IMG/VR virus record: IMGVR_UViG_3300010153_000056
Coordinates: 1 to 31,013 of that record
DNA: 31,013 nt
From: a virus
Reading direction: 5' to 3' (one strand)
In this document: in pieces, positions 17,018-18,365 of the stretch
Layout: every line of letters begins with the position of its first letter
Position numbering within the stretch: position 1 is the first letter of the stretch
Notes under the pieces: model-generated
Seen by the model: only the letters and a program-made list of their open reading frames with translations
Told to the model about the DNA's origin: nothing
Database searches by the model: none
Translations under genes and position numbers: made by a program

Positions 17018-17302
17018 ATGAATAATGCCAATAGCAAAACACAGAACAAAGAAAACACCTCATTCCTTATGGGTGAAACGAAGGAACAAAAGAAAGTATC
17101 AACGAAAGTATCATGCAAAACATACCTCATCAAACAAGCAGGTGGATATGGCGGCTTTATCAGAGCCTATAAAAGAAACCCCTTTGAAACCTCAGAAAGA
17201 CAAGCCAAAGGGATTTATTCAAAAAAGTTTGGCAGGAATAAAGAATGTTTTTGTGGATCAGAAAGAAAATTCAAAAAGTGCTGTTTAAATGCGAGTCCTT
17301 GA
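17018..17302 (+). CDS. SEC-C motif protein (ORF B of an overlapping pair)
   Basis: The last 25 residues of this 94-residue frame read FGRNKECFCGSERKFKKCC, a SEC-C zinc-binding motif (CxCGSxxKxKxCC) as found at the end of SecA and in many small phage proteins. The ATG at 17018 has GGGAG only one base away, so initiation looks poor. The end overlaps the methyltransferase by 14 bases. The motif is too exact to be chance; how this frame is reached is open. Confidence 0.55.
   Translation: MNNANSKTQNKENTSFLMGETKEQKKVSTKVSCKTYLIKQAGGYGGFIRAYKRNPFETSERQAKGIYSKKFGRNKECFCGSERKFKKCCLNASP
17025..17288 (+). CDS. Basic protein (ORF A of an overlapping pair)
   Basis: The 87-residue product begins MPIAKHRTKKTPHS and is very basic in the first 35 residues (KRRNKRKYQRKYHAKH). 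The start ATG lies 8 bases after GGGAG, the better ribosome-binding site of the pair. The stop is directly followed by the methyltransferase ATG. The same DNA holds another open frame (17018-17302) with a clear SEC-C motif. One of the two may be a shadow, both may be used, or a frame change may link them. Confidence 0.5.
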   Translation: MPIAKHRTKKTPHSLWVKRRNKRKYQRKYHAKHTSSNKQVDMAALSEPIKETPLKPQKDKPKGFIQKSLAGIKNVFVDQKENSKSAV

Positions 17303-18365
17303 TCTATTTAGTGGTATTGGTGGGTTTGCTTTGGCAGGTCAATGGGTATGGGGTGATGATCATGAGATTGTGGGGTTTTGTGACATTGACAAATATTGTC
17401 ACAAAGTCCTCAATAAAAACTTTCCTGGTGTACCCATATATGACGATATACAACAATTAAATGGAAAAGATTTTAATAATATTGACCTTATTACAGGTGG
17501 TTTCCCTTGTACCGATATTTCAGTCGCAGGTCGTGGAAAAGGATTAATTGATGAAGAAACAGGAGAGAAAACGAGGTCTGGTCTTTGGTTTGAAATGCTT
17601 AGAATCATTAGCGAGGTACGACCAAGATTTGCACTTATTGAGAATGTCCCAATGCTCACTATTCGGGGTGGAACAAGAGTCATTGCAGACCTTACCAAAA
17701 TCGGGTATGATGCAGAATGGACTATTATCGGAGCAGACGATGTTGGAGCATGGCACAAAAGAAAAAGAATCTGGATTGTTGCCTACCCACGAGAAATTTC
17801 CAACTCCAAGTGCGAGAGATTTCAAGGACTCTGTAAATGTAATTCCACCATGCACAGGAAAAACAAGGGGAGAAAACCTTGCAAACAAAATTGCAAGATT
17901 AAGAATAGAAGAAAATCAGAAGATGAACTTTCCAACTCCAACAGTAGCAGACACATTCACAGACAAACTAAAGAGCAGTCAGCAGAAAGAGGGTTCGATG
18001 CACTCGGTCAATCTGAGCCAAGCAGTACACATGACAAAGATGTTTCCAACTCCAACAGCAGGCCTAGAAAAGCACAGCACCAAGAAAGAGTATTGGGAAA
18101 ATCGAATAAAGAAGGGAAGGCAGAACGATATTCAAATGCAAATATACAAAGAAGAAGGGAAGGGAACACTAAACAGCGAGTGGGTGGAATGGCTAATGGG
18201 TTATCCGATAGGTTGGACAGATATTGGATTAGAGAACCAGAAGGAATCCCAAGAGTTACAACAGGACAAACAAAAAGAGTCCAAAGACTTAAAGGACTTG
18301 GGAACGCTATAGTGCCGCAGGTAGCATATAAAGTAATGAAAATGATAAAGGAATGTGATGAATAA
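17289..18365 (+). CDS. DNA cytosine-C5 methyltransferase
   Basis: The 358-residue protein has the ordered motifs of the Dcm family: I, DLFSGIGGF (5-13); IV, GGFPCTDIS with the catalytic Cys at 74; VI, ENV (118-120); VIII, HKRKRIWIVAYP (156-167); and IX/X near the end, RLKGLGNAIVPQVAYK. It moves a methyl group from S-adenosyl methionine to cytosine in a short target and could protect phage DNA from restriction. The target-recognition part (about 170-320) is rich in Asn, Ser, Arg and Lys and looks of low complexity. An ORF in the +1 frame overlaps residues about 88-341. No restriction enzyme gene is seen nearby. Confidence 0.92.
   Translation: MRVLDLFSGIGGFALAGQWVWGDDHEIVGFCDIDKYCHKVLNKNFPGVPIYDDIQQLNGKDFNNIDLITGGFPCTDISVAGRGKGLIDEETGEKTRSGLWFEMLRIISEVRPRFALIENVPMLTIRGGTRVIADLTKIGYDAEWTIIGADDVGAWHKRKRIWIVAYPREISNSKCERFQGLCKCNSTMHRKNKGRKPCKQNCKIKNRRKSEDELSNSNSSRHIHRQTKEQSAERGFDALGQSEPSSTHDKDVSNSNSRPRKAQHQERVLGKSNKEGKAERYSNANIQRRREGNTKQRVGGMANGLSDRLDRYWIREPEGIPRVTTGQTKRVQRLKGLGNAIVPQVAYKVMKMIKECDE
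17551..18312 (+). CDS. Overlapping +1-frame ORF with phage methylase C-terminal motifs
   Basis: This frame is open for 253 residues entirely inside the methyltransferase gene. It has FPTP motifs three times (FPTPSARDFKD, FPTPTVAD, FPTPTAG), LQTLPKSGMMQNGLL and WVEWLMGYPIGWTD. I recognise these strings from the C-terminal half of other phage-borne methylases. The ATG at 17551 has AAAAGGA 7 bases upstream. The methyltransferase frame in the same DNA also looks genuine. It may be a separate protein, an overprinted relic, or a product of frame switching. Expression is unproven. Confidence 0.4.
   Translation: MKKQERKRGLVFGLKCLESLARYDQDLHLLRMSQCSLFGVEQESLQTLPKSGMMQNGLLSEQTMLEHGTKEKESGLLPTHEKFPTPSARDFKDSVNVIPPCTGKTRGENLANKIARLRIEENQKMNFPTPTVADTFTDKLKSSQQKEGSMHSVNLSQAVHMTKMFPTPTAGLEKHSTKKEYWENRIKKGRQNDIQMQIYKEEGKGTLNSEWVEWLMGYPIGWTDIGLENQKESQELQQDKQKESKDLKDLGTL

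Follow-up and report, generated by a model that had tools for sequence, protein, structure and literature searches.

The DNA methyltransferase locus of the window (the whole stretch of 31,013 nucleotides of viral DNA that was analysed, IMG/VR record IMGVR_UViG_3300010153_000056) is very probably a nested two-subunit cytosine-5 DNA methyltransferase of the M.EcoHK31I kind, obtained from one piece of DNA. The open reading frame (ORF) that lies in the +1 frame inside the C5-methyltransferase gene (beta) is confirmed, by comparison of homologous sequences, as a real protein maintained by selection, and the frame-0 product (alpha) and beta are most likely two halves of one cytosine methyltransferase, the first responsible for catalysis and the second for recognition of the DNA.

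In the proposed scheme ribosomes that start at position 17289 would produce alpha, in which a flexible, unconserved linker joins a large catalytic domain with motifs I-VIII to motif X, and initiation at the internal ATG 17551 would produce beta in the +1 frame, with a short N-terminal part, three FPTP modules, and motif IX. The beta modules and motif IX together would form the small DNA-recognition domain, alpha and beta would assemble into one enzyme, and this enzyme would methylate the phage DNA, probably protecting it against host restriction. Frame 0 would remain open across the beta modules only to keep motif X on the same chain as motifs I-VIII.

The locus of the window and the start of beta

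The features of the locus are collected in Table 1. The sequence-only reading had described a +1 frame open for 253 amino acids with LQTLPKSGMMQNGLL, three FPTP motifs and WVEWLMGYPIGWTD, the string TTTCCAACTCCA at 17797, 17929, and 18043, and AAAAGGA ahead of ATG 17551, and all of these strings and positions proved to be correct. The complete Dcm motif set that it had assigned to frame 0 required correction: alpha possesses motifs I-VIII and X, and no canonical motif IX was found there by pattern. The alpha protein matches PF00145 over 1-354 (Pfam, 9.3e-44) and TIGR00675, and the beta protein of the window matches phrog_1008 “DNA methyltransferase” (PHROGs, 8.3e-24).

Table 1. Features of the nested methyltransferase locus, in window coordinates unless a locus is named.
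Feature	Position	Strand	Basis
Alpha (frame 0), C5-methyltransferase catalytic subunit, 358 aa, motifs I-VIII and X	17289..18365	+	ORF, PF00145
Beta (+1 frame), putative target-recognition/motif IX subunit, 253 aa, phrog_1008	17551..18312	+	ORF and profile match
Motif IV catalytic Cys codon (GGFPCTDIS), alpha	17508..17510	+	
AAAAGGA, Shine-Dalgarno-like site for beta within the alpha GKG codons, 7 nt 5' of ATG 17551	17537..17543	+	
Beta N-terminal part, over alpha motifs VI-VIII; apparent constraint in both frames	17551..17796	+	
Motif VI (ENV), alpha	17640..17648	+	
Motif VIII (KRKRIWIV), alpha	17757..17780	+	
FPTP module 1, beta	17797..17928	+	
FPTP module 2, beta (KSSQQK...HSV.L.QAV type, common to distant phages)	17929..18042	+	
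FPTP module 3, beta (another module in its place in the 97%-identical relative L324)	18043..18168	+	
Motif IX (LNSEWVEWLMGYPIGWTD), beta	18169..18222	+	
Alpha frame-0 linker, motifs VIII to X; open, sequence unconserved	17790..18287	+	
Motif X (RLKGLGNAIVPQVA), alpha	18288..18335	+	
Natural fusions	L169:3386-4642; L244:2001-3068; L245:1998-3227		

Besides alpha and beta the contig encodes a tape-measure protein, a RusA-type resolvase, and a large terminase, and a DnaD-like loader gene is the immediate downstream neighbour of alpha. No restriction gene was identified among ten neighbouring proteins scanned, so self-protection of the phage DNA is the likely role of the enzyme. Directly upstream of alpha there are two overlapping ORFs (17018-17302 and 17025-17288), the first of which has a terminal CFCGSERKFKKCC (SEC-C-like) motif and shares 14 nt with the beginning of alpha.

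TTG 17548 is a possible alternative start codon of beta besides ATG 17551, the latter being kept in the relatives L325-L328 and L331. In 172 loci the candidate beta starts cluster 68-98 nt before motif VI. They follow AGKG codons, where the Lys-Gly pair itself encodes a Shine-Dalgarno-like sequence; a Shine-Dalgarno match of at least 4 nt is present at 107 of the 162 best candidate starts, 34 of the 162 are without a Shine-Dalgarno-like site, and in 10 of the 172 loci the stretch from motif IV to motif VI offers the beta frame no ATG, GTG, or TTG. The existence of loci without an obvious beta start is in favour of programmed +1 frameshifting near motif VIII, which would yield one chain with motifs I-VIII, modules, and motif IX beside the full-length frame-0 alpha, and the natural fusions are evidence that a chain with its parts in this order is workable. 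However, about 75 codons of beta precede the end of motif VIII and are under constraint, which a shift at motif VIII leaves unexplained, a shift upstream of motif VI would cost catalytic motifs, the product would be without motif X, and the clustering of the starts and their Shine-Dalgarno matches also speak against frameshifting, which is considered improbable. The constraint on beta ahead of motif VIII is better accounted for by internal initiation than by a frameshift at this motif, and it is internal initiation that we infer for beta.

Recurrence of the +1 offset and the place of motif IX

Protein searches performed with each frame separately found homologues for both; those of the +1 protein are many, and the +1 frame is not filled with stops where frame 0 is conserved. 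With both frames open in hundreds of loci and with purifying selection on the +1 protein, the overprinting proposed in the sequence-only reading is real. In tblastn the +1 protein of the window found 82 phage records and a second beta member (from L001) found 117 records, the examined matches being situated at methyltransferase genes, and additional loci were obtained from three IMG/VR scans and one GTDB scan. The +1 offset recurs in 370 loci, where frame 0 is mostly open through to motif X. In a set of 315 loci, mostly found with beta as query, the nested +1 form accounts for 277, the split +1 form for 17, and the segment in frame 0 for 4, and a recognised IX motif is missing from 17. When the sample was drawn by the alpha N-terminus only (n = 81, window included), beta was in +1 in 77 loci, in frame 0 in 4, and absent in 0. 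Motif X is located in frame 0 at or past the end of the overlap, and 107 of 130 viral loci have 53 nt between the IX landmark and the GN of this motif.

Among the bacterial carriers are Acinetobacter, Pseudomonas, Paenibacillus, Burkholderia, Geothrix, Nitrospirae, Spirochaetia, Verrucomicrobiales, and clostridial genomes. The second protein of such phage and bacterial genes usually lacks annotation: frame 0 alone is annotated despite an open +1 ORF in Acinetobacter phage ABMM1, Lacticaseibacillus phage R9.1, E. coli PT62, and a Leptospira plasmid. Both ORFs are annotated in Paenibacillus phage Leyra (gp61, 1501-2538, and gp62, 1685-2389, offset +1), and in Microcystis phage Mwe-JY08 (L006) the alpha frame is unannotated and the sole CDS annotated at the match, 392-652, belongs to the +1 frame. 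All 105 members of the beta alignment A3 match phrog_1008, which is the one model of beta in PHROGs; Pfam contains no beta model and gave no match for any of the 105 members, and none of the scanned beta proteins matched NCBIfam.

By pattern search motif IX is absent from frame 0 in all 370 loci, and the LNPxWVEWLMG motif is found in the +1 frame of 332 of them. Since beta has neither a solved structure match nor a Pfam model, the designation of WVEWLMGYPIGW as motif IX rests on its position, its pattern, and published precedent. The beta profile found no solved structure among PDB sequences, and the fusion profile found the catalytic part only. The predicted structure of beta alone (pLDDT 63, pTM 0.29) is not usable, and in the model of the fusion L244, built with a mixed alpha/beta alignment, the catalytic domain is confident and the module/IX region is mostly below pLDDT 50. 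In Foldseek the catalytic domain of this model alone matches HhaI, and as the module region is without confidence, this search supports the catalytic part only.

In the single-chain fusions L169/L244 and L245 one frame runs from motifs I-VIII through at least one PTP module and DWVECLM(G/N)(F/Y)P to motif X. As these natural fusions place the +1 segment between motifs VIII and X, it corresponds to the target-recognition/IX segment of an ordinary methyltransferase. The old frame switch that the sequence-only reading had offered as another possibility is thereby retained in one part, namely that this segment sits in the +1 frame, and abandoned in the other, since the +1 segment is no copy of a frame-0 domain. 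L169 and L244 retain an open +1 remnant over motifs VI-VIII, and this remnant suggests that both were re-fused from a nested ancestor; L276 is doubtful as a fourth fusion. In the splits L002, L003, L007, L242, and L243 the +1 gene carries the modules, IX, and X; for Wizard007, Camperdownii, Lilbooboo, ArV1 (L242), and Firecracker it was seen that frame 0 ends right after motif VIII and the +1 gene spans the modules, IX, and X. In the alpha tree the fused and split forms fall inside nested clades.

Several loci show further variation of the same parts. The alpha of Arthrobacter phage ArV1 (L242:906-2376) has an insert of about 75 aa (RDMDSTPETLALDAEIEELTTRRD...) between motifs VI and VIII, ahead of the +1 split; in the viral contig L051 alpha ends before motif IX and motif X is in the beta frame, another rearrangement; and in L226:2490-4390 alpha with a nested +1 beta is followed directly downstream by a stand-alone second beta with different modules, the two betas being possibly alternative specificity subunits for one catalytic subunit.

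The stand-alone beta of L226, together with the lack of a solved or Pfam relative, is compatible with beta being a separate protein, e.g., a regulator or an anti-restriction factor, that overlaps an active monomeric methyltransferase. This is very improbable, as frame 0 is without motif IX by pattern in every one of the 370 loci, and both the fusions and the split form put the beta sequence exactly at the place of the recognition domain and motif IX.

Selection in the two frames

The substitution check by codon position, run on the homologues, indicates purifying selection on the +1 protein. In the +1 overlap beta position 2 is alpha position 3. Between motifs VIII and IX, in 22 pairs with 95-99.5% identity, the per-site change was 0.061, 0.013, and 0.002 at beta positions 3, 1, and 2, respectively, and the amino acid identity of the same pairs was 98.8% for beta versus 93.0% for alpha. 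According to this positional pattern the +1 protein is the conserved product in VIII-IX, and frame 0 is an open unconserved linker. In the alpha-only N-terminus position 3 is the fastest (0.121, 0.051, and 0.267 at alpha positions 1, 2, and 3; 80-90% pairs), and in motif IX alpha position 3 is the slowest (0.237, 0.075, and 0.041). The comparison of the window with L328 gave 16/83, 10/83, and 35/82 changes at alpha positions 1, 2, and 3 of the alpha-only part, 30/50, 8/50, and 9/50 in the modules, and 10/15, 2/16, and 1/16 in motif IX. The blastn alignments of 70-80% pairs contain gaps that are not multiples of three.

For the N-terminal part of beta, which lies over alpha motifs VI-VIII, both frames appear to count, a point weaker than the others and judged against motifs I-IV of the same genes as baseline. 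Fourfold sites are slower in motifs VI-VIII (0.065, 0.204, and 0.336) than in motifs I-IV (0.094, 0.281, and 0.433), and between the window and L324 the third-position changes are 2/80 in VI-VIII versus 17/82 in I-IV.

The openness of frame 0 was considered through the contexts in which T at beta position 3, standing before AA, AG, or GA, would stop alpha. T makes up 20% at beta position 3 in other (neutral) contexts, and there are about 42 alpha-stop contexts per nested locus, so that alpha would stay open by chance with a probability near 0.8^42 for each locus; that T is never counted there in nested loci is itself a product of locus selection, and the evidence lies in the high share of nested loci. 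By this reckoning the alpha frame is kept open across beta, though it is unconserved in sequence.

The same data bear on the possibility that frame 0 alone is translated, and that the +1 frame owes its openness and its conserved look to codon bias and to conserved residues of frame 0. Alpha is strongly conserved over VI-VIII, and part of the beta N-terminal similarity is therefore automatic (GYDAEW read as SGMMQNG). Nevertheless, in the modules and motif IX alpha is the less conserved protein and its third positions are the slowest, the fusions and splits use the +1 sequence as protein, and when synonymous codons were shuffled without altering the frame-0 protein of the window, an open +1 frame survived in 0.2% of trials, against an expectation of 3.8 stops (the median was 0 in the same test over 137 homologous loci), which leaves this explanation with almost no probability. 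That a methyltransferase gene was broken by compensating indels into two non-functional products is scarcely credible, since despite some broken relatives, e.g., L236 of E. coli with its internal stop in alpha and its annotation as a pseudogene, phages and many bacterial phyla share the arrangement, both products are under purifying selection, and motif X and the catalytic motifs are retained. The L236 copy (L236:2500-3261, E. coli PCP07014) is a prophage copy that also has a nearby +1-frame stop.

Putative recognition modules and comparison with known enzymes

Beta proteins contain 0-7 segments headed by (F/W/Y/L)PTP with a median length of 41 aa. There are 291 module pairs that are at least 70% identical despite alpha catalytic parts less than 55% identical, and 104 of these 291 are at different ordinal positions. 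Among alpha pairs with 90-99.9% identity, which are not independent of each other, all modules are shared in 90, some in 102, and none in 75. The closest relative of the window, L324, in which alpha is 97% identical, has modules 1 and 2 the same and module 3 different, the latter resembling the last module of L325. The swapping of FPTP modules between relatives suggests exchangeable and possibly multiple specificities. The repeated string TTTCCAACTCCA was also considered as a recombination site, and this was dropped, as the within-locus synonymous identity of the PTP codons is hardly above the GC-matched between-locus level (third-position identity 0.386 versus 0.353); the identical 12-mers are explained by the FPTP amino acid motif and AT-rich codon use.

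The multispecific C5-methyltransferases of Bacillus SP-beta-type phages (SPR, phi3T, and H2) have tandem exchangeable recognition modules of about 40 aa. Beta likewise has tandem modules exchanged between relatives, and by analogy with these enzymes the modules may be the units of DNA recognition; the Bacillus enzymes differ in being single chains in one frame. Titles on these multispecific enzymes are cited in PMC8936443 and PMC12707154.

The nearest precedent as a whole is M.EcoHK31I, the small chain of which is reportedly read from another frame inside the large-chain gene; in the window, too, ORF geometry and selection on the +1 frame point to a small chain that is encoded out of frame inside the gene of the large one. 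In PMC3404938, which cites Lee et al. 1995, the large chain of M.EcoHK31I (YGGCCR) is described as containing motifs I-VIII, X, and a predicted recognition domain, and the small chain as containing IX only. By comparison with this published description, the window also has I-VIII and X on the large chain and IX on the small chain, but the predicted recognition domain of M.EcoHK31I is on the large chain, whereas the evidence from the window places the recognition modules in beta.

M.AquI is a C5-methyltransferase naturally divided into two chains near the variable region (PMC3404938), and the actinophage relatives are built as a split of this type. In AquI and the actinophage genes motif X is on the second chain, while the window has motif X on alpha and a nested beta. 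The window also differs from the HhaI-type monomer, as frame 0 is without the motif IX pattern and thus not all of I-X are on one chain. The existing cluster phrog_1008 contains beta but lists it only as a methyltransferase, and the record is silent on its being read inside another methyltransferase gene. The ShiLan element is an out-of-frame HNH endonuclease inside a phage methylase gene (PMC11855218) and resembles beta as a second protein out of frame within such a gene; however, it is a mobile insertion in some copies, whereas beta is integral, almost universal in the family, and without an HNH match (no Pfam match, 105 beta members).

A search of the openly accessible literature found M.EcoHK31I, M.AquI, and the ShiLan element and no description of a widespread nested family. 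The arrangement known from a single studied enzyme, M.EcoHK31I, is found here in hundreds of phage and bacterial genes, and its breadth, as well as the evidence that places recognition modules in beta, look under-appreciated. It is on balance likely that there is a large clade of C5-methyltransferases, carried mostly by phages, for which coding in two nested frames is the standard form and in which the specificity subunit is an out-of-frame array of recognition-module cassettes that can be swapped and multiplied while the other frame serves as an open linker, and that annotation as one Dcm gene misses the specificity part. Few cases are documented in prokaryotes of long same-strand overlaps for which selection on both frames has been shown, and the alpha/beta overlap is found repeatedly, always with a fixed offset, among phages and in many phyla of bacteria. 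Cloning or specificity prediction from the annotated frame-0 gene alone would use the linker and leave out the probable recognition subunit, resulting in inactive or misassigned enzymes. The alpha/beta locus is a natural system for module exchange inside a two-frame gene, and the family is a ready source of naturally split methyltransferases.
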